A stretch of DNA of 59,642 bases, from positions 1 through 59,642 of the forward strand of contig JAJPJP010000377.1 of NCBI GenBank assembly GCA_021324175.1, in the 5' to 3' direction. This stretch comes from Chitinophagia bacterium (lineage in GTDB: Bacteria > Bacteroidota > Bacteroidia > Chitinophagales > Chitinophagaceae). Every line of letters starts with the position of its first letter. Positions within the stretch are counted from its first letter, which is position 1. Under the pieces are notes generated by a model that was given only the letters and a program-made list of their open reading frames with translations, did not search any database and had not been told where the DNA came from. Shown here one piece after another: positions 1-14,003 of this stretch. A program made the translations under genes and the position numbers.

Positions 1-2778
1 AATGATCGAACTTCGAAGATATGGAGTGCGGCAAGCGGCCGGCTATTCGCGGACTTACGTTCGCATGTGCCCATGCCAACGCATGCGGCCATAAGCCCGG
101 ACGGACGGATAATTGTTGCCATCTACCAGGATAGCTTGGCGAGAGTCTGGGATGGCGGAGATGGTCGCCTCCTTCGATGTCTTTCGGGCCCTGTCAATCC
201 ATTGTCTCCGGTAGTTTTCAGCCCGGGCGGAAAATTTTTTTTGGTCGCGTCATGTTCCAACGACTGCCTCATCTACCGGTCAGGGGACTACCCCACCCCC
301 CAGCTGCTCCGCGGTCACACGGACTGGTTGACTTCGGCCGCCTTTAGCCCGGACGAAAAATATGTCGCTACCGGTTCCTGGGACAGTACGGTAAGGATTT
401 GGCAAATAGCCACCGGCAAATGCCTCAGAGCAATGCGCGGACAAAAGAACGTCGTCGCATCGGTTGCTTTTGACCCGGCGGGCCGCAGCGTCACGAGCGC
501 TTCCTGGGATCATACGGCGATGATTTGGAAATTGTCCGGCACACATTCTCCGTCCGTCCTGCGCGGTCACCGGGATGAGGTACGCAACGCCGCCTATAGT
601 CCCAACGGACTTTATGTGGTTACTTCTTCTTGGGACAGTACGGCAAAAATCTGGCTGTCCCGAACCGGCAAGCTGATCCATACGCTCAAAGGACATCGCG
701 ATTTTGTCAACGAGGCGGGGTTTAGTCCCGACGGAGCCAAGGTGTACACCGTCTCCATGGATGGCACAGCCAAAATCTGGGACCTCGTTAGTGGAAGATG
801 CATCCGGACGCTTTCGGGACATTCCCGCGCGGTTATACACGCGATCTTCAGTAAAGATTCCAAAAGAATTTATACTGCCTCCTGGGACAATACCATCAAG
901 ATCTGGGAGGTAAAAACCGGAAAGCTGCAGCAAAGCCTGGATTCCCATGAAGCGCCCCTGGAATCGATGGACATGGACCGCGAAGGCCGCGACCTGATCA
1001 GCGCCTCCGAAGATAACACCATAAAAAAATGGTCGGCTGTTTCCGGCTCCCTGCAATACAGTTTTTTCCCGGTCGACAGGGATGACTATCTCCTGATGGA
1101 CGGCAGGGGCCGCTATGATGGCACAGAAGGCGCCAGGCGCATGTTGTACTTTGCCTGCGGACCGAGACTGGAAGACCTCGAACAATTCAAGAACCTGATG
1201 TGGGAGCCCTCACTGGCCAAGAAATGCAACGGTTTAGATGAGGAACCGATTACCGCTTCGAGGCTATCGGACATCAAAGTCTGTAACTATTCACCCCTGG
1301 TCGAACAGTCTATGCGGGGTGATAGTGTCTTCGAGTTCAAAATCACCCCGGGAGCCGGAGGAGTAGGCAGGCTGGACCTCTGCGTAAACCGAAAACAGGT
1401 CGCAAGCTTTGAACCGCAAAATCTCCAAAAAGAAAACGGCTCCTTTTGGTTATCCGTTGACAGGAGGGCGGTCCAGGATTATTTTTTGCCGGGTGAGGAA
1501 AACACCGTCTATCTGAAAATTTCCACCCTGGACGGTCAAACCCTGACACGCGGAAATCCCATCGCATCAACAGCCGCCCCGCGCCCCGCTACCAGTGCGA
1601 ACGTTTACCTCGTCATCGCCGGAGTCAGCAAGTATAAAGGCAAGGACCTCCGGCTCAATTATGCAGCAAAAGATGCCGCTGATTTTTCGGCCGTCATCAC
1701 CGCTGCAGCAAGGAAACTCTTTGATATCGATGGTACCGAACATGTCCATCCCTATCTTTTTCTGACGGACAGCCTCGCCCGCCAGCCGCTTAAGCGAAAT
1801 ATCGCATCCGTCGTTGACACCATCTCCCGGCTGGCGCGCGCCCAGGATATCCTGCTGGTATTTTTTGCAGGTCATGGGTTGATGGAACCAAATAAAAAAA
1901 CTTATTATGTGCTGACCAGCGACGCGGCCGATTTCAATATTTCGGGGATCGAAGACCAGGTTGCCGTCAGCACGGATGAACTCAATCAGTGGAGTAGCCG
2001 GATTAAGGCAAACAAGCAGGTGCTGATCCTGGACGCTTGCAGCAGCGGCCAGGTGATCAGCAATTTGAGCACGCTGTTTAACCGCGGAGACGTTCCAGCC
2101 GATCAGCAACGGGCTCTTGAAGAGTTAAAAGATAAAACCGGGCTATATATCCTATGCGCATCGGCTTCAGGACAGGCTGCACGGGAATCGGGGCTGTACA
2201 ACCAGGGCCTTCTCACCTATGCCCTGCTTTCTGGTATCAAATTCGGAGAGGCCATGAAAAACGACAAATTTATAGACGTCAGCATGTGGTTCAATTTCGC
2301 CAGCCAGGAAGTCAGGAAACTGGCCAGGGAAGCGGGCTCCGATCAACAACCCCAAATTCTTGGCAGCGCGAGCTTTGACATCGGCATCGCTGATAATGAC
2401 ATCGTAAGCAGGATCAACCTGTTTTCCAAAAAAAAGATTTTCCTGCGGTCGCGATTCGTCGACGACGAGGTGCTTCTTACCGATGGGTTGAATTTTACCG
2501 GCGTGGTAGATCGCGAACTGAACAACCTGTCCGAAAAAGGCAGGGAAAGCCCGCTTGTCTTTGTGCCCGACAATGGCGCCGACAGCGCTTTTTCCCTGCA
2601 CGGCAAATACCAGGTGTTTGGAGACAGCGTCAGGATAAAAGTGTATCTCATCATGGGTCAGAAAAAACTCCTATATTCCTTTGAACAAAGGGGGCTGGTC
2701 AATGACCGCGATGAACTGGCGGCAGCCCTGGTTTCAAGAATCCGGAAATATATTGTCAATTTCACATTCAAAGAGTAA
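1..2778 (+). CDS. WD40-repeat / caspase-like (peptidase C14) protein, 5' end truncated by window edge
   Basis: Frame is open from base 1 (NDRTSKIWSAASGRLF...), so the true start lies upstream. At least 8 WD40-like repeats (SWDSTVRIW, SWDHTAMIW, SWDSTAKIW, MDGTAKIW, SWDNTIKIW). Caspase-type His motif LVFFAGHG (His codon 1873-1875) and Cys motif ILDACSSG (Cys codon 2038-2040). Confidence 0.92.
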   Translation, partial: NDRTSKIWSAASGRLFADLRSHVPMPTHAAISPDGRIIVAIYQDSLARVWDGGDGRLLRCLSGPVNPLSPVVFSPGGKFFLVASCSNDCLIYRSGDYPTPQLLRGHTDWLTSAAFSPDEKYVATGSWDSTVRIWQIATGKCLRAMRGQKNVVASVAFDPAGRSVTSASWDHTAMIWKLSGTHSPSVLRGHRDEVRNAAYSPNGLYVVTSSWDSTAKIWLSRTGKLIHTLKGHRDFVNEAGFSPDGAKVYTVSMDGTAKIWDLVSGRCIRTLSGHSRAVIHAIFSKDSKRIYTASWDNTIKIWEVKTGKLQQSLDSHEAPLESMDMDREGRDLISASEDNTIKKWSAVSGSLQYSFFPVDRDDYLLMDGRGRYDGTEGARRMLYFACGPRLEDLEQFKNLMWEPSLAKKCNGLDEEPITASRLSDIKVCNYSPLVEQSMRGDSVFEFKITPGAGGVGRLDLCVNRKQVASFEPQNLQKENGSFWLSVDRRAVQDYFLPGEENTVYLKISTLDGQTLTRGNPIASTAAPRPATSANVYLVIAGVSKYKGKDLRLNYAAKDAADFSAVITAAARKLFDIDGTEHVHPYLFLTDSLARQPLKRNIASVVDTISRLARAQDILLVFFAGHGLMEPNKKTYYVLTSDAADFNISGIEDQVAVSTDELNQWSSRIKANKQVLILDACSSGQVISNLSTLFNRGDVPADQQRALEELKDKTGLYILCASASGQAARESGLYNQGLLTYALLSGIKFGEAMKNDKFIDVSMWFNFASQEVRKLAREAGSDQQPQILGSASFDIGIADNDIVSRINLFSKKKIFLRSRFVDDEVLLTDGLNFTGVVDRELNNLSEKGRESPLVFVPDNGADSAFSLHGKYQVFGDSVRIKVYLIMGQKKLLYSFEQRGLVNDRDELAAALVSRIRKYIVNFTFKE

Positions 2779-2787
2779 ACGCCATTC

Positions 2788-3762
2788 GTGAAAACACCCC
2801 TCATTTTTTTGAATCCTCTCGGTCTTGCCATGGCCATCTCCCTTGCTTCATGTGCCGGCTCCCCTTTTGGGTCCGCCGTAAATAGCGAGCGGTTACATAT
2901 GAAAATTAAGGAACAAAAAAATGTCATCGTCGCAGATCAGCTTAAATCACAAAAGGTCCTGACGATGGATGAAAGGGCAGAGGCCGATAAGGACGCCCCG
3001 CGCGGGCCGCTGGCGACGATGTCGGTGGATGTGATTTCGCTTGCCACGGATGCGATCAAGAACATCATCGCCAATGATAAAAAACGATATAATGCTTCGT
3101 ATTCCTTCGGTCTTACTGATCTTTATTTTTATGACCAGTTGTCCAACGAGGGGGCTTTTGACCCTGTGGGCATGCAGTTCAGCGGATTTCGGATTTTCCG
3201 GACATTTAAAAACGCCGCGGGCGATGAAGACACGGCCCTTGCGGCAGACTTTGGGCTGGATACCACCAACAGCTATGAAATCATCAACAATTCCAGTTTT
3301 CATCTTAAGCTAAGGGATTTTCATCTCCGGTTTGCCAAGGCAAAAATTCCGAAAGGAGGAGACAACAAATTAAACCTCGATTTTGAAATTACATTTCTCA
3401 CCTCCTATGTCAATAGCCAGGGTCTCATCTTTGACAGTGCCGTGCTTGGAAAATTTTACCTGTTCGTTCGCAACGCGCCTCTCGACAGCAGCAGCCCGGG
3501 CTATGCCGGATATTATGCGAGCATGAAGGACTCTTCGCTCACCGGCAGGTCCTTCATCATTCCAAGATCCTTTGGATACCACCGCGAACCCGACGGGCAA
3601 ACCAAGCCCAGTTATAGCCGTGGTCAATATTCGATTGAAATCAAGGTGAAGGAAAGTTCAAAAAATAGATTTGTCAACAAAGTACTCCTCGAAAATGCCA
3701 ATATCATTATCGACGCCGGGGGAAGCAGCCTGAAAGCGGCGCCGGTGTTAAAAAAACTTTGA
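2788..3762 (+). CDS. putative lipoprotein of unknown function
   Basis: GTG start 9 nt after the caspase stop codon. Signal peptide with lipobox (AISLASCAGS). No family recognised. Confidence 0.8.
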   Translation: MKTPLIFLNPLGLAMAISLASCAGSPFGSAVNSERLHMKIKEQKNVIVADQLKSQKVLTMDERAEADKDAPRGPLATMSVDVISLATDAIKNIIANDKKRYNASYSFGLTDLYFYDQLSNEGAFDPVGMQFSGFRIFRTFKNAAGDEDTALAADFGLDTTNSYEIINNSSFHLKLRDFHLRFAKAKIPKGGDNKLNLDFEITFLTSYVNSQGLIFDSAVLGKFYLFVRNAPLDSSSPGYAGYYASMKDSSLTGRSFIIPRSFGYHREPDGQTKPSYSRGQYSIEIKVKESSKNRFVNKVLLENANIIIDAGGSSLKAAPVLKKL

Positions 3763-3765
3763 CCG

Positions 3766-5274
3766 TCAGGCAGGGTGCGCCGCAGCGGGTTGCTTGATGG
3801 GATCTGTTTTGGTGCTCTTGTCCAAGGTGATTTTCATTTGAATCCGGTCCTGCTGGTATTTTGGCCAGTCAAAGCTCATGAGAAAGTCACAGGCGGCCTG
3901 TGCACCCCTGATAAACATCTTAAGTTTTTCCTGGTCAGATACAAAAAAATTGAGCCAGTTAAACTCGAAGAGGGGAATCTTTCCAATGCCTTTTTTGAAC
4001 ACATTGTTTTTGATGAGAAAATCCTTATCGTAATAATAGCGGATGGTATTGAACAGCTTTCCCAGGTAAATCGTAAAACTCCAGGGAGCAATTTCAGTCT
4101 TGTTATCCTGGCGACTGGGATCTTCATCCTCCAGGTCGATGCCCCAGGAAGGCAGCCTGGGCTCGACCACACGCGGGTTATAAAATATATTGATAGGGAA
4201 ATTCGAAAGCATGCCCCCGTCAATAAACCGGGCTATGGCTGGTATTTCCTGGTCATCGCCAAAATGTTCTTGCCACGCATTGCGGATGGACTCGCTGGAC
4301 GTGTCAATGTTGTCGATAACATGTGATTCGAAAAAAATGGGGATAGACATGGAGGCCCGTACAAAATGGGCGGGGTGCAGGTCATCCACCCTCTCCCTGA
4401 AAAGATTGGCCATTTTGGGAAACTCGACCTTGTTTTCCGAAACCAGCTCCGATGTGATAATGGTGATATCGCCCGCCAGCGTATCGGCGTTCTGCGTGGC
4501 TGGGTTTCTCACGTTCAAATGCGGTATGGCGGACGCTTTTTCATTGAGTGCGGTAACCGTCGAAACCCCGTTTTCATCCATGATCTTTTTCATCCACTCG
4601 AAAAAGAAATTCCCCGGGTTCACCCCATGCCCGCTTTGCCGCAGGCTTCGGAAAAGGTGATTTAAGTACAGGATAAACGCTCCCATGGCGATCAAATGGA
4701 TGATGGTGAGTGCCACGCAAACAGGCAGGAGGATCCGCGCCCACTCCATAGCCCGAAAGGAAATCATGATCATGTCCAGGCACACGAGCGCAATGAGCCA
4801 GATGAGGAGGCCGTCGAAAAACTCCTTAAGGTTGGTCTCAAATTTCTTGTTGGTGATAAAATTCCTGATCAGCCAGCGGATAACCGGCGGTCCGTCCACG
4901 AGGTCAAAAAAATTCAGGTCGCAGAGATGTTTCAGAATCTTTTCCGATTTGGGTTCCTCTTTCTTTCCGATCACGACAATCAGTGAGGTATTGATGGCCC
5001 CGGCGCTGGTTCCCGCCATGCGCAAAAAGCGGATGCCGGCCTGTTCCAGAATATAGGTATAACCAACCAGGGAGACGCCCAACACGCCGCCGCCCTTTTG
5101 AACCAGGTTTACATATTGATGACCGTAATCATCCAGCGTGTCCGAGATAAACAGGTTTTCAAAGTTCTCCCCGAATTTGTTTTTAAGTTGGCTGATGCAT
5201 GCGGTCACATCCGGGTGTCGTAAAAAATCCTCCGTTGTCAGGGCGGGCTGATCAGGTTTGGCAGTTTTAATCAT
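3766..5274 (-). CDS. patatin-like phospholipase with internal transmembrane segment
   Basis: Glycine-rich GGGVLGVSLVG, nucleophile motif GTSAG, catalytic DGG (FIDGGMLSNFPI). Hydrophobic stretch LLIWLIALVCLDMIMISF...ILLPVCVALTIIHLIAMGAFILYL lies between them. Confidence 0.9.
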   Translation of the reverse strand: MIKTAKPDQPALTTEDFLRHPDVTACISQLKNKFGENFENLFISDTLDDYGHQYVNLVQKGGGVLGVSLVGYTYILEQAGIRFLRMAGTSAGAINTSLIVVIGKKEEPKSEKILKHLCDLNFFDLVDGPPVIRWLIRNFITNKKFETNLKEFFDGLLIWLIALVCLDMIMISFRAMEWARILLPVCVALTIIHLIAMGAFILYLNHLFRSLRQSGHGVNPGNFFFEWMKKIMDENGVSTVTALNEKASAIPHLNVRNPATQNADTLAGDITIITSELVSENKVEFPKMANLFRERVDDLHPAHFVRASMSIPIFFESHVIDNIDTSSESIRNAWQEHFGDDQEIPAIARFIDGGMLSNFPINIFYNPRVVEPRLPSWGIDLEDEDPSRQDNKTEIAPWSFTIYLGKLFNTIRYYYDKDFLIKNNVFKKGIGKIPLFEFNWLNFFVSDQEKLKMFIRGAQAACDFLMSFDWPKYQQDRIQMKITLDKSTKTDPIKQPAAAHPA

Positions 5275-5321
5275 GGCAGTTTGGAAACCTGAATTTTTAC
5301 TTTTGTTATACCGGGACCCGA

Positions 5322-5345
5322 TTTATAATTTACTTTTATAATTTA
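5322..5345 (+). repeat. two tandem copies of TTTATAATTTA (13-bp period) abutting the CHASE2 start codon
   Basis: Exact 11-bp matches at 5322-5332 and 5335-5345. Confidence 0.8.
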
Positions 5346-6547
5346 TGGGCGCCAGAAAGATTCTAAAGCCTGTCAGGACAAGCCAAGTCATCCTTTCCTG
5401 CATCAGCGGTCTGGTAGTGCTCGTCATAACCCTGATTTATCAAAACTTTGATTATACTATTTCAGCAGAGGATGCTTTTATTTCCAAATTTTCCTACTGG
5501 AAATTTAAAATCTTTTCGCGAATTCCGAAAAAGAACGCCGATTTTGTTTTTATCAATACCGGCCGGGATCTCGCGCTGGTAGATGATACGGCAAGCGCCG
5601 GCAATATTGTGATCAGCGACCGCGAGAAACTCTGGCGACTTTTGCATTTCATCAATGCGCAGGCGACAAAGCCCGCTTTCACCGTCATCGATTTGCAGTT
5701 TTATTACCCCTATAGCATCTCGCCGCATATTGATACGCTTATACAGCAGGAACTTGACGGCAATGCCAATACGCTCATTGCGATCCTGCCGCGGCCCGGG
5801 AACCTGACAGAATATATGCTCCCACTCTACCGTTGCAAGTACGGGTTTTCCGAATATGGGACATATGGGTCGGGCTTCAACAAGTTTCGCATTTTCAACC
5901 GGGAAAATATTCACTCGATACCCGTCCTCCTCGATGAAATGCTCAGCCATTCAGTCTACAAAGACCACGGTCTTTTTTCGACCTGCGACGGCCATTTGTG
6001 CATGTCGGATATCTGGCCCAGTTATTATCTCAACGATCAGGCGCTTGAAAACAACCAGTACCTGCCTTACGCCCAGTACTATACCCTCGGCGACCTGCTC
6101 ACGGGCATCCGGTACTCCCCCGGCGCATTCGCAAAAAATCTGGCAGGAAAAATTATTATGATCGGGAATTTCGAGCTCGACAACCATAGCACCGCGATCG
6201 GCGTTTTGCCCGGTTCAGTCATTGTGGCTGACATCTATCTTTCGTTGCTTAACCAGCACCATTTTGTTAATTATTGGTTTTTAGTGATTTGCTGGGTAGT
6301 ATTCTCAGGGCTAAGTTGGCTTTCCTGGTTCAGCAAAGTGCCGGAATTAAAGATCCGGCTGAATTTTATTTTTTCGCCTCATCTGGTCAATCTCATAAAA
6401 ACGTATATTTCATATTTCGGTTCGATGTTCTTTTTGTCGCTCATTGCCATGTTCTTTTTCAACATGCAGATCGCGCTTTTCCTGCCAAGTTTTATTTTTT
6501 CCCTTATCGAATATTTCAGGCAAAAAAGATACCTTCCGAAAAAATAA
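5345..6547 (+). CDS. CHASE2-domain membrane protein (stand-alone sensor, no recognisable cytoplasmic output domain)
   Basis: N-terminal TM helix, extracytoplasmic region with CHASE2-like features (SAEDAFISKFSYWKFK, VFINTGRD, KIIMIGNFELDNHSTAIGVLPGSVIVADIYLSLL), then several C-terminal TM helices. Confidence 0.8.
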   Translation: MGARKILKPVRTSQVILSCISGLVVLVITLIYQNFDYTISAEDAFISKFSYWKFKIFSRIPKKNADFVFINTGRDLALVDDTASAGNIVISDREKLWRLLHFINAQATKPAFTVIDLQFYYPYSISPHIDTLIQQELDGNANTLIAILPRPGNLTEYMLPLYRCKYGFSEYGTYGSGFNKFRIFNRENIHSIPVLLDEMLSHSVYKDHGLFSTCDGHLCMSDIWPSYYLNDQALENNQYLPYAQYYTLGDLLTGIRYSPGAFAKNLAGKIIMIGNFELDNHSTAIGVLPGSVIVADIYLSLLNQHHFVNYWFLVICWVVFSGLSWLSWFSKVPELKIRLNFIFSPHLVNLIKTYISYFGSMFFLSLIAMFFFNMQIALFLPSFIFSLIEYFRQKRYLPKK

Positions 6548-6632
6548 ATTCGGATTAGCGTTTGGACCGGACCCTGGATTTATTTTAACTTTAAATGGCG
6601 AGATGCGGCCTGACGACTGACTTATTTGCACT

Positions 6633-9239
6633 ATGAGACGCTCGATATTCCTACTTGCTTTGACCGGCTGGTTTTTTGCGCGGGCGCAGAATCCGGATCT
6701 GGATAAAAAGATCCAGGAATTGTCCGCTGCCATCCAGACCAACAGCGGCAATGTGGGAGCATACATTGCCCGCAGCCAGGCCTATGCCGATAAAGGAGCC
6801 TACCAGGCCTCCGAATTGGATTGCCAGGCAGGACTCATGCTTGATCCCAAAAATCATGTGCTTTGGAGGAATCTTGGATATGCACACTACATGCAGAGTA
6901 AGTTTGACTCCTCGGTTGCTGACTACAAAAAGGCCCTGCGCATCGCACCCCGCGACACGATTGCCTGGAGGGGCCTCGGGTTGGCTTATTACTACAAAAA
7001 AGAGTATGATTCATCCATCAAAATGTTTGATAAGGCAATATCCCTGGACGAAAAATATGTCGAAGCGTATGCAGGCAGGGCAAGTTCTGAACTGGCCTAC
7101 GACAAACCGGACAACAACCAGCTGGCCCTTCAGGACTATGACCGGATGATTCAGCTCGCCCCGAACCGGGAATTAGGGTGGTATTACCGGGCCTGGCTTT
7201 ATAACCGCATGCATCAATACGATCATGCCATTGCCGATGCCCGCCAGGCCCTTGCCCTGAATCCCAGATATAGCTATGCATGGCATGAATTAGCACTCGC
7301 CTATTATAACAAAGCAGATTATGTCACAGCCACACGGTTTTTTAGTGAGTGTCTCAAGTACGATTCCTCCAACTATGATGTATGGAACTTCCAGGGGTAT
7401 TGCTATTTAGATGATAAAAAATATGATTCCGCTCTTTGGAGTTACCGGAAGATGATTTCCATGCAGCCCTCAAATCCCGCGGGATTGTACTGGGCAGCCA
7501 GGGTTTACAGCACGAAGAACAACAATGATTCAGCCATGGTTTTGCTCAATGCGGCGCTGCAAATAAACGCGGACTACGCGGATGCCCTGAATTACCGCGG
7601 GTGGCTTTATTATAAAGCAGGCAAATTTGATTCTGCAATTTCGGACTACGAAAGGATCCTTAGCGGCGATTCCCGTAATGCCCTGGTTTGGAGCAATTTG
7701 GGAATCGTCCATTACACACAGGGTAAGTACGGCCTGGCCATTAGCGACTGCAAGGAAGCGCTAAAAATAGATTCATTGAATGCCGGGTACACGACAAATC
7801 TTATCGTCGACTATATGGCTGACCAGAAGTACGACAAGGCTTACGGATTGTTTCAGTATTACCGCGAGAAAAAGCTTAACGGTTATGCCGACGGAATTTC
7901 CAGCTATTATTTTGTCAAAAAGTATATTGCTTCTGCGGAGTTTCTGCAGAGCGAAGACTATGACCACGCGCTTCCTTCCCTTCAAACTGCCCTGACAGAA
8001 TATAAGAGAGCAGATACCGCCCGGGATAGCAGCCCCTATGTCTACAGCATGTATTCCAATGTGCTGGCCACGCTGGCTTTTGTTTACCAGCAAACCGGGG
8101 ACAAGGAAAAGGCTTTGGAATATTACAAGAAATCAGACATTGTCGGGCTCGCAAAGGACTTGCAGAAATCAAAGATCCAGCGCCTGCAGGATGATTTGAG
8201 CCGCAGCAAAGCCATCGCCGACAAGGGTCCGCAGATACAGCTCCTGTCTCCAGCCATCGTCCAGGGCAATACCGTCAGCGCTGAAGGTGACGGAAAGTTA
8301 TTTGTCAGCGGCACCGTGCAAAGTGAAATGGGAATTGACTGGCTGCGTATCAATGGTAACAACGTGACTGTCCAGACCAATGGATATTTTTCTGCAAATC
8401 TAACCGGTGACCTGAAGAGCTTTGTGATCCAGGCAGAAGATAAAGATGGCCGTATCAGCTCGCAGAATTTCCAAATCCAGCAGGGAGCCACCTCCGTGCA
8501 AGATTCAATTCCCGGCGTGGCATCAGGCCCGCGGCCGGTATTTCATGCGGTGTTGATTGCCTGCAGCAACTATGCCGGAGACAAGTGGTCAAAACTTCCT
8601 TCCACTATCGACGAAGCCAATTCCTATAAGGCGTTGCTGACAGCAAATTATGGATTTGACAAAAAGAATATTTTGGAATTGTATGACAAAGGCGGGCACG
8701 ATATACTGGCTTCGCTCAGCTCAAAACTTGAATCCCTGAATGAAAATGATAACCTGGTCGTCCTTTTTGCAGGGCACGGGACTTATCGCGGCGACGGCAA
8801 CGACCGGATTGGCTATTGGGTACCCCTCAATGCGAACGACCCGCTGGACTATATCTCTAATATCAAACTCACTGAACTGATCATCGGCTGCCGGGCAAAG
8901 CATATCCTGTTGTTATCAGATGCCTGCTACAGTTCCGCGATGAGGGGCGATGAAAATGGTGACGACAATGCCGGGGCTACGCAGAAATATGAATTCAATC
9001 TGAAAAGCAGACAGGTGCTCACCAGTGGAGGCTTGGAGAAAGTGCCTGGCAACAGCATTTTTATTCATATGGTTGAAAAAGTCCTCCGACAGAATGACCA
9101 AAAATACCTTTCCGTTAAAGAGCTATATAGCCTTATTTTCAGCGCCGTCAGAAACCAGACCAATAACGAACCCGAATTGAATATTTTTGGAACCAATGGA
9201 AACGAGGGCGGACAGTTTTATTTTATTCGCACCAATTGA
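6633..9239 (+). CDS. exported TPR / Ig-like / caspase-like (peptidase C14) protein
   Basis: Signal peptide MRRSIFLLALTGWFFARAQ, about 10 TPR-like repeats, beta-sandwich-like linker (PQIQLLSPAIVQGNTV...INGNNVTVQTNGYFSANL), caspase motifs LFAGHG (His codon 8775-8777) and SDACYSS (Cys codon 8925-8927). Confidence 0.92.
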   Translation: MRRSIFLLALTGWFFARAQNPDLDKKIQELSAAIQTNSGNVGAYIARSQAYADKGAYQASELDCQAGLMLDPKNHVLWRNLGYAHYMQSKFDSSVADYKKALRIAPRDTIAWRGLGLAYYYKKEYDSSIKMFDKAISLDEKYVEAYAGRASSELAYDKPDNNQLALQDYDRMIQLAPNRELGWYYRAWLYNRMHQYDHAIADARQALALNPRYSYAWHELALAYYNKADYVTATRFFSECLKYDSSNYDVWNFQGYCYLDDKKYDSALWSYRKMISMQPSNPAGLYWAARVYSTKNNNDSAMVLLNAALQINADYADALNYRGWLYYKAGKFDSAISDYERILSGDSRNALVWSNLGIVHYTQGKYGLAISDCKEALKIDSLNAGYTTNLIVDYMADQKYDKAYGLFQYYREKKLNGYADGISSYYFVKKYIASAEFLQSEDYDHALPSLQTALTEYKRADTARDSSPYVYSMYSNVLATLAFVYQQTGDKEKALEYYKKSDIVGLAKDLQKSKIQRLQDDLSRSKAIADKGPQIQLLSPAIVQGNTVSAEGDGKLFVSGTVQSEMGIDWLRINGNNVTVQTNGYFSANLTGDLKSFVIQAEDKDGRISSQNFQIQQGATSVQDSIPGVASGPRPVFHAVLIACSNYAGDKWSKLPSTIDEANSYKALLTANYGFDKKNILELYDKGGHDILASLSSKLESLNENDNLVVLFAGHGTYRGDGNDRIGYWVPLNANDPLDYISNIKLTELIIGCRAKHILLLSDACYSSAMRGDENGDDNAGATQKYEFNLKSRQVLTSGGLEKVPGNSIFIHMVEKVLRQNDQKYLSVKELYSLIFSAVRNQTNNEPELNIFGTNGNEGGQFYFIRTN

Positions 9240-9244
9240 ACTGC

Positions 9245-10060
9245 ATGGGAAAAAAGTGGCTCTTATTCCTTTTGGTCATCGCCTGCTCCATGGCAGGACA
9301 GGGGCAGTATACCGTGACCAAGGTGATTGGGCATGTGACAAAAAAAAATGGGGAACCAATCGTCACAGGCACAGTAATCAACGACAATGATGAACTGCAA
9401 TACTCCTCGCCGAACGACATGGTGAGAGCCATTGTACCGGGCAAGGGAATTTATGTGTTCAATCCAGGTCCCAATGCGGAAAAAAAGCAGAATCGGATTG
9501 TAGAAGTCCTCCGCTCGACGATGCGCGTGCGGTCAAAAGAGGGTTACCTGAGCGGACGGAACTCGTCCATGGAAACAGTACCCGATGCGTTTGACCTCAG
9601 CATGGGCGATAACAAAAAAATCCTGGTGGCAGACACCAATCGTTACCTTTTCGATCATAGCCGTTATCCGGTGCAGGATGGCAGCCGGTTTGTCCTGCAG
9701 ATAAACCGCGACAACGATAAACCGCTCATCCGGGTGCTGGAAACCCAGGGAGACACCCTTTTTATCTATTCTCAGGATTTCAGCCCGGGCCGCGCACCGG
9801 CAACTACCCAAGCACATTTCATCCTGGGATATTATTCCAAACCAAAACGCTCAACCGAAGCGCTGACAGAGATCAGCCCGTATTTTGATTCCTCAGGCGA
9901 TATGACCACTATTATCAAGGCCATTGTGCGCAGTGAAAAGAAAAATGACGCATCTTCCCTTCAGTCCGAAGCGTATGCGGAAGTCTGGCTGGATTTGGGT
10001 AAACCATCGGACATCGATTTCCAGCGCGTTTTTTCTTCCGAATTCGCGGCAGGACGGTGA
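9245..10060 (+). CDS. small exported protein, possibly FecR-like N-terminal domain
   Basis: Signal peptide MGKKWLLFLLVIACSMAGQGQ, then VTKVIGHVTKKNGEPIVTGTVINDNDELQYSSPNDMVRAIVPGKGIYVF. ORF can start at TTG 9236, overlapping the upstream stop; ATG 9245 preferred. Confidence 0.75.
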   Translation: MGKKWLLFLLVIACSMAGQGQYTVTKVIGHVTKKNGEPIVTGTVINDNDELQYSSPNDMVRAIVPGKGIYVFNPGPNAEKKQNRIVEVLRSTMRVRSKEGYLSGRNSSMETVPDAFDLSMGDNKKILVADTNRYLFDHSRYPVQDGSRFVLQINRDNDKPLIRVLETQGDTLFIYSQDFSPGRAPATTQAHFILGYYSKPKRSTEALTEISPYFDSSGDMTTIIKAIVRSEKKNDASSLQSEAYAEVWLDLGKPSDIDFQRVFSSEFAAGR

Positions 10061-12332: not shown

Positions 12333-13892
12333 TCAGGGCTTGCTCGTCATTTTAATCACGGGAATGATCATCTCTTCAAGGCTCACGCCGCCGTGCTGGA
12401 AGGTATTCCGGTAATAGTTTACATAATAATTGTAATTGTTGGGATAGCAAAGAAAGCCGTCTTCTTTGGCAAAAATGAAGGAGGAATTCACGGTAGGCAC
12501 GGGCAGTCCGGCTAGCCGCGGATCACGAAACGCCAGCACTTCCTTCGCTTCATAGTTCAGATTCCTGCCGTGTTTATAGCGAAGGTTTGTCGTCGTCTGC
12601 TTGTCGCCGATCACCTTGCATGGCGTTTTCACCCGCACACTGCCGTGGTCGGTAGCCAAAATGATATTGATTTTTTTGTCCGCCATCTTTTTCAAAGCCT
12701 GGTGCAACGGAGAGTGTTCGAACCAGCTCGATGTAATGCTGCGATAACTGATTTCATCGCTTGCCAGCTCTTTCAGGACTTCCATTTCCGTCCTCGCGTG
12801 GCTGAGCATGTCGACAAAATTGTACACGATAATGTTGATATCGTTATCATAGAGGTTGTGGATGTTGTTAACCAGGTCCTGGCCTGCCTGGAAATTCAAC
12901 ACCTTGGTGTAACTGAATCGCAAATTGTCCTTGCCGATCCTTTTCAATTGCGCACGGAAAAAATCCTCTTCATAAAGATTTTTTCCACCTTCCTCGTCAT
13001 CGTTTCTCCATTGCGAAGGAAACTGCCTTTCGATATCCATCGGCATCATTCCCGCAAACATGGCGTTTCGGCTGTACTGGGTGGCCGTGGGCATTATGGC
13101 ATAGAAAGTATCTTCCTCGGTGATCCGGAAGTTTTCCGAAAAAATCGGCTGGATCGCCTTCCATTGATCAAATCTGAGATTGTCAAGCAAAATGAAAAAT
13201 GTCGGGACGCCCTTTTCAAGGTTGGGAAAAACCTTGGATTGAAAAAGCGTATGCGACATGACGGGAACACCGGTCGCCTTAGGCTTTACCCACGACGCAT
13301 AGTTTTTTGAAACGAATTTGAAAAACTCCGTATTCGCCTCCTGCTTCTGTGATTGTAGCACTTCACGCATCTCCGGGCTGTCGCTTTTCTCCATTTCAAG
13401 CTCCCAGTATATCAGTTTTTTGTAAATGTCCATCCAATCGTTGTGGTCCGGGTTGCTATTAAGCGCCATGAACAGGTTACGGAATTGCTGTTGATAGGCG
13501 GTTGTAGTTTTTTCGGCAACAAGCCTTTTATTGTCGATGATTTTTTTCAGGCTGAGAAGAACCTGGTTGGGGTTGACGGGCTTGATCAGGTAATCAGTAA
13601 TCTGGCTGCCGATGGCATCGTTCATCAGGTTTTCCGTCTCATTTTTTGTGATGAGCACGACAGGGACCTGCTGGTTGATTTCCTTGATCTTCGCCAGTGT
13701 TTCCAAGCCTGTTATGCCCGGCATCGATTCGTCTATCAAGACCACGTCGATAAAATTGTCTCTTACATAGTCGATCGCGTCGAAGCCGTTGGTCATGGAA
13801 CTAATTTCATATCCCTTATTTTCAAGAAAAAGGATCTGCGAATGCAAGCTTTCAATTTCATCGTCAACCCAAAGTATTTTTGCTAAAGCCAT
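12333..13892 (-). CDS. porX: PorX: response regulator receiver plus PglZ-type alkaline phosphatase domain, type IX secretion regulator
   Basis: Receiver domain ILWVDDEIESLHSQILFLENKGYE...VVLIDESMPGITGLE; C-terminal phosphatase-type domain (FFILLDNLRFDQW, ILATDHGSVRV). Start moved to MALAKILW. Confidence 0.92.
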   Translation of the reverse strand: MALAKILWVDDEIESLHSQILFLENKGYEISSMTNGFDAIDYVRDNFIDVVLIDESMPGITGLETLAKIKEINQQVPVVLITKNETENLMNDAIGSQITDYLIKPVNPNQVLLSLKKIIDNKRLVAEKTTTAYQQQFRNLFMALNSNPDHNDWMDIYKKLIYWELEMEKSDSPEMREVLQSQKQEANTEFFKFVSKNYASWVKPKATGVPVMSHTLFQSKVFPNLEKGVPTFFILLDNLRFDQWKAIQPIFSENFRITEEDTFYAIMPTATQYSRNAMFAGMMPMDIERQFPSQWRNDDEEGGKNLYEEDFFRAQLKRIGKDNLRFSYTKVLNFQAGQDLVNNIHNLYDNDINIIVYNFVDMLSHARTEMEVLKELASDEISYRSITSSWFEHSPLHQALKKMADKKINIILATDHGSVRVKTPCKVIGDKQTTTNLRYKHGRNLNYEAKEVLAFRDPRLAGLPVPTVNSSFIFAKEDGFLCYPNNYNYYVNYYRNTFQHGGVSLEEMIIPVIKMTSKP

Positions 13893-14003
13893 TTCGTATT
13901 TTTTTTTGTCTGCCAAATGGTCAGAATAGCAGTAAGCTGCCTGGATCCAACCCACCTGTTCTCATGATTAATTTCCTGGACACTCTGACTCACGCGCTTC
14001 AAC

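Follow-up and report, generated by a model that had tools for sequence, protein, structure and literature searches.

To what end does a bacterium encode two caspase-like proteases side by side with a CHASE2 membrane sensor, and on which side of the inner membrane would they act? The question is raised by the left end of the window, a stretch of 59,642 nucleotides that makes up contig C176 of a 450-contig MAG in full and begins at contig base 1. Bacterial caspase homologues have been discussed mostly as cytoplasmic proteases linked to death or defence, and a preliminary description of this DNA had seen six consecutive genes as a candidate conflict or death-signalling system, with envelope-stress signalling named as an alternative. 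The six predicted ORFs are present at about the positions given there and all of their domains were found, but the contig start truncates the WD40-caspase gene, the patatin gene has been inserted and ATG 9245 is the likelier start of the last gene (Table 1).

Table 1. Genes at the left end of the window and the features by which they are recognised.
Gene product	Coordinates	Strand	Features
WD40-repeat C14 caspase, exported, 5' truncated	1..2778	+	C14 about aa 536-800, H625/C680
Lipoprotein, uncharacterised family	2788..3762	+	lipobox LASC, Cys22; cassette marker
Patatin-like phospholipase, inserted gene outside conserved cassette	3766..5274	-	two TM segments between S90 and D352
CHASE2 membrane protein	5345..6547	+	N-terminal TM, extracytoplasmic domain, C-terminal TM bundle, no cytoplasmic output domain
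TPR-repeat C14 caspase, exported	6633..9239	+	H715/C765, signal peptide
FecR-like small exported protein, partner of CHASE2	9245..10060	+	ATG start preferred over TTG 9236

Pfam, NCBIfam and profile searches confirmed the proposed domain content, with CHASE2 below the Pfam cut-off. The first protein matched WD40 (1e-61) and C14 (5.4e-11) and, compared to a full-length relative of 1271 amino acids that carries an N-terminal signal peptide (P0007, genome G082), misses about 345 N-terminal residues together with its signal peptide. The C14 domain of the TPR protein had no match in Pfam and was recognised by NCBIfam (2.3e-12) and by a leave-out profile (4e-29). As read from the sequence, the catalytic His and Cys are intact in both window caspases, and such a pair is found in 54 of 54 cassette C14 domains (50 by motif, 4 by reading). 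The window CHASE2 protein scored 2.3e-4 in Pfam compared to 7e-7 to 4e-27 for its relatives, and a weak 0.024 with a leave-out profile (1.7e-7 for the relative in G082), while the FecR-like protein reached 0.0009 (4e-5 in G082); as both are divergent, they owe their names in part to gene order and to intermediates. The FecR-like proteins gave no Pfam hit (PF04773), their cassette profile weakly matches a FecR-annotated protein (E 0.001-0.005), and the predicted structure (pLDDT 44) can be interpreted only as far as a beta-rich stretch in the first 70 residues.

The closest relative of the locus is a syntenic five-gene operon in another genus (Chitinophagaceae MAG-387, G082; JAEUVS010000034, L046/L008), where genes for WD40-C14, lipoprotein, CHASE2, TPR-C14 and FecR-like proteins follow each other on one strand, overlapping slightly or 3-10 nt apart and encoding proteins about 40-53% identical to those of the window, with no patatin among them. 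The window patatin (domain match 6.9e-18, catalytic S90/D352 intact) is encoded convergently with the lipoprotein gene and divergently from the CHASE2 gene, so that it splits an otherwise same-strand run and leaves expression of the downstream half uncertain there. Patatin homologues were present in 18 other genomes among 149 of the family, and near none of the 13 homologous loci that were fetched, with about 8 kb on each side for most, was a CHASE2, FecR-like, lipoprotein, C14 or CHAT gene encountered; Terrimonas ferruginea (G004) possesses both a patatin and the cassette, on different contigs. Membership of the patatin in the cassette was rejected on these grounds, namely the opposite strand, the absence from G082 and the 0 of 13 homologues near any cassette gene, and the role of membrane-lipid effector that had been assigned to it is not supported. 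A six-gene system with patatin as its lipid effector is largely refuted and would now be very surprising, even though the ends of the patatin and lipoprotein genes are 3 nt apart and both known members of the five-gene version have a lipid hydrolase, in G082 a Tle1-like phospholipase (PF09994, 1.4e-87; L008:13610-14728 = L046:16846-17964) at the end of the operon, whose start overlaps the FecR-like gene. Neither a patatin, sought with a single-sequence profile, nor a Tle1-like gene occurred in the other fetched cassettes, which makes lipid hydrolases optional at most. All five genes but the patatin probably constitute an extracytoplasmic caspase cassette into which the patatin gene was inserted. 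Patatin homologues are themselves often adjoined by a gene for a membrane protein of about 200 aa with a recurrent FSI/FSIM-type motif (L140, L141, L143-L147, L151), none being noticed at the window copy.

With the patatin left out, clustering of the genes is far beyond chance. A scan of GTDB with the lipoprotein yielded 31 loci, for the most part from Chitinophagaceae, the family to which the window probably belongs on this account, and also from Solitalea and from Bacteroidales-labelled and Balneolaceae MAGs. Across the cassettes the exported protease is a C14 caspase or a TPR-CHAT protein. A C14/CHAT gene lies within 3 kb of the lipoprotein gene in 23 of these (within 500 bp in 20), CHASE2 is present as well in 9, and 8 are without C14/CHAT; with some 4 C14 genes in each genome, chance alone would account for about 1%, and the corresponding binomial figure of 3e-40 overstates the association because related genomes are not independent. 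The order C14, CHASE2, FecR-like, lipoprotein recurs in L047, L051, L058 and L071, with an extra gene in L049 and L056 and rearranged in Terrimonas (L059). Predicted fusions tie the cassette parts together further: CHASE2 and FecR-like are joined in L111, and in L115 (4758-6704) a single chain beside a CHASE2 gene combines FecR-like (3.3e-19), C14 (2.8e-16) and outer membrane beta-barrel (2.4e-6) parts. The proposal of a compact, membrane-linked caspase/CHASE2 cluster is hereby borne out, its genes being neighbours in other genomes too; of the suggested co-occurrence of C14, patatin and CHASE2, the C14 and CHASE2 genes do recur, together with the lipoprotein and FecR-like genes, but patatin does not. 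Another contig of the same genome as the window (L010, contig C416) holds a second exported-caspase locus, with two genes for C14 proteins, one for a lipoprotein paralogue of 39% identity and one for an exported protease of the papain family.

The lipoprotein family itself matches no model in Pfam or NCBIfam. Its predicted structure is confident in the core (pLDDT 81), and a PDB structure search with this model gave no convincing match (best E 3e-3, TM about 0.12), nor did a PDB sequence search return any. In L036 and L037 (also L052 and L055), a homologue has no caspases nearby and adjoins the gene for a secreted protein that looks like an alpha/beta hydrolase.

A search for CHASE2 across the order and the phylum, with a profile that contained caspase-linked members, resulted in 23 loci with a CHASE2 gene. 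A FecR-like gene stands within 300 bp of it in 18 of the 23 and is fused to it in a 19th (L111), while C14/CHAT genes lie within 5 kb in 8 and are missing from this range in the other 15. CHASE2 and FecR-like look like a common pair, with caspases as a frequent but optional partner, since the loci were not picked by caspase presence. The pair could also be taken to indicate nutrient or TonB-type signalling, with the caspases cleaving a regulator in a FecR-like anti-sigma pathway; in FecR/RseA pathways site-specific proteases cleave the regulator, and in L031 a gene that by eye is sigma-factor-like adjoins the CHASE2/FecR-like pair. However, neither a sigma factor nor a TonB receptor was seen to be conserved in the cassettes, and the FecR-like proteins look soluble and exported, lacking a cytoplasmic anti-sigma part, so we consider this explanation improbable. 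In one locus (L034:9425-10645) an in-frame TAG splits the CHASE2 gene. In a distant family (L104, L106, L110), CHASE2-FecR-like pairs adjoin genes that read by eye as NfeD and SPFH/stomatin-type, with no protease.

In most of the CHASE2 proteins the sensor domain is flanked by one N-terminal and two or three C-terminal predicted TM segments, as expected for a receptor. The window protein and most relatives measure about 386-494 aa, the bulk of the CHASE2 proteins about 390-460 aa, and have nothing beyond the last TM segment, and thus no cytoplasmic output domain such as a kinase, cyclase or caspase. Export was called by a simple signal-peptide rule and by reading by eye. The rule was positive for 80% of the cassette C14 proteins compared to 39% of neighbouring genes. 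Among the C14 proteins that it missed, every full-length one starts with a signal peptide that is obvious by eye (e.g. MKIRLLIPILLLSLVPGVLIAQ), and the only other one is truncated at the locus edge. All full-length cassette caspases look exported, and the outer membrane beta-barrel of the L115 chain independently places its C14 caspase in the periplasm. Taken together, CHASE2 topology and caspase export would have the sensor domain and the proteases share one side of the inner membrane. The sequences themselves document the association of the genes, the export signals, the intact catalytic residues, the predicted topology and the fusions.

Related loci encode additional exported proteases, of the trypsin-PDZ type in L049, L056 and L059 and of the papain family in L010, L102 and L109 (in L103 by similarity), and these proteases together with the NfeD/SPFH neighbours point to envelope maintenance, not defence. 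The best explanation of the cassette, to which we assign a probability of roughly 0.55, is a periplasmic regulated-proteolysis module that senses the state of the envelope, so that the envelope-stress signalling offered as an alternative in the preliminary description fits best. Anchored in the inner membrane, CHASE2 would expose its sensing domain to the periplasm, where the FecR-like protein would join it to form the sensor; the lipoprotein, tethered to a membrane, would be a further partner that probably scaffolds or regulates the proteases, and the two exported His-Cys peptidases with their WD40 and TPR scaffolds would provide the output on the periplasmic side. Upon detection of an envelope change or a ligand, the proteases would become activated and cleave envelope substrates, the outcome of which may be repair, remodelling or lysis. 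A physical complex of the cassette proteins, its trigger, the order of activation, the substrates and the outcome are what we infer here.

Were lysis the purpose, activated periplasmic caspases would degrade the envelope of their own cell in a programmed or developmental cell death, for instance upon colony ageing or damage. Intact His-Cys dyads, several proteases per locus and the combination of sensor and effectors agree with this, and for cyanobacteria a death-receptor role of caspase-CHASE2 fusions has been proposed (PMC7475262). Yet among the conserved genes of the loci no amidase, holin, gasdermin or other lytic enzyme was recognised, and the phospholipases, the window patatin and the Tle1-like protein of G082, are each confined to one locus; this explanation is unlikely, although less so than a conflict function. 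The latter would be an anti-phage or other system triggered at the envelope. It could account for the patchy distribution of the lipoprotein (13 of 197 family genomes), and bacterial conflict proteins typically contain WD40, TPR and caspase parts (PMC8195603). Against it, PADLOC matched only generic caspase and repeat models and no named defence system, as had been anticipated, and the 50 kb right flank consists for the most part of housekeeping genes, that is core genome, according to Pfam and further scans of the window proteins. This flank, the only one available as the contig begins at the cassette, bears no sign of a defence island; neither RNA elements nor tRNAs were found in the window. 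Phage and plasmid searches with the lipoprotein returned no homologue, the effectors are exported, and in several genome pairs the flanks of the cassette are shared, which suggests vertical inheritance. The defence idea has gained no positive support from any of these results and seems remote.

The proposed envelope proteolysis by exported caspases would also set the cassette apart from the known systems it resembles. The caspase-like proteases of type III CRISPR TPR-CHAT and those that activate gasdermins are cytoplasmic and come with CRISPR or gasdermin partners. They share the caspase-fold protease and repeat scaffolds with the cassette, whose proteins, in contrast, have signal peptides and no such partner was seen; cas genes were absent among the window proteins scanned. 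As for CBASS with a patatin effector, the Pfam scan of the window proteins contained no CD-NTase and PADLOC gave no CBASS match. DegS/HtrA are envelope-stress proteases in periplasmic, sensor-regulated proteolysis, the type of process proposed here, and a trypsin-PDZ protein occurs in some related loci; the cassette differs by its C14/CHAT cysteine proteases and CHASE2/FecR-like sensor, with no RseA/sigmaE pair seen. Metacaspase-CHASE2 fusions in Trichodesmium (PMC2853523, PMC3501461) and EACC2-caspase-CHASE2 systems (PMC8195603) have been published. Such metacaspase fusions likewise link a caspase to a CHASE2 sensor, but there the caspase is part of the same chain and read as cytoplasmic, whereas here it is encoded separately, exported to the sensor side and accompanied by the FecR-like protein and the lipoprotein. 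FecR-CHASE2-kinase operons are known from Burkholderiales, e.g. BiofilmReg of Burkholderia (PMC5192318), and a FecR-CHASE2 pair is also present on a Paraburkholderia plasmid. BiofilmReg similarly encodes a FecR-domain protein beside a CHASE2 membrane protein, but its CHASE2 has a PAS and histidine kinase output with a response regulator, where the cassette has exported proteases and no cytoplasmic output. Among open-licence papers, a search for bacterial caspases termed exported or periplasmic returned nothing, nor did one for CHASE2, caspase and patatin in combination; the exported caspase-CHASE2 version appears undescribed.

More tentatively, and at somewhat less than even odds, Bacteroidota and neighbouring lineages may possess a dedicated periplasmic caspase signalling, in which a CHASE2/FecR-like sensor does not signal inward to a kinase or cyclase but governs caspase-superfamily proteases that share its outer side of the membrane, alongside a lipoprotein family whose structure model lacks a convincing match among solved structures. 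If so, this recurrent cassette would place caspases in another compartment and probably give them another task, and CHASE2 sensors would operate without cytoplasmic output. The cultured strains Terrimonas ferruginea DSM 30193, Flaviaesturariibacter aridisoli and Solitalea longa carry the cassette, which makes these predictions testable. Further along the window, a response regulator-PglZ protein is encoded at 12333-13955 (- strand) near the LpxD, LpxA and LpxC/FabZ genes; we take it to be of the PorX-like architecture associated with T9SS regulation in Bacteroidota.
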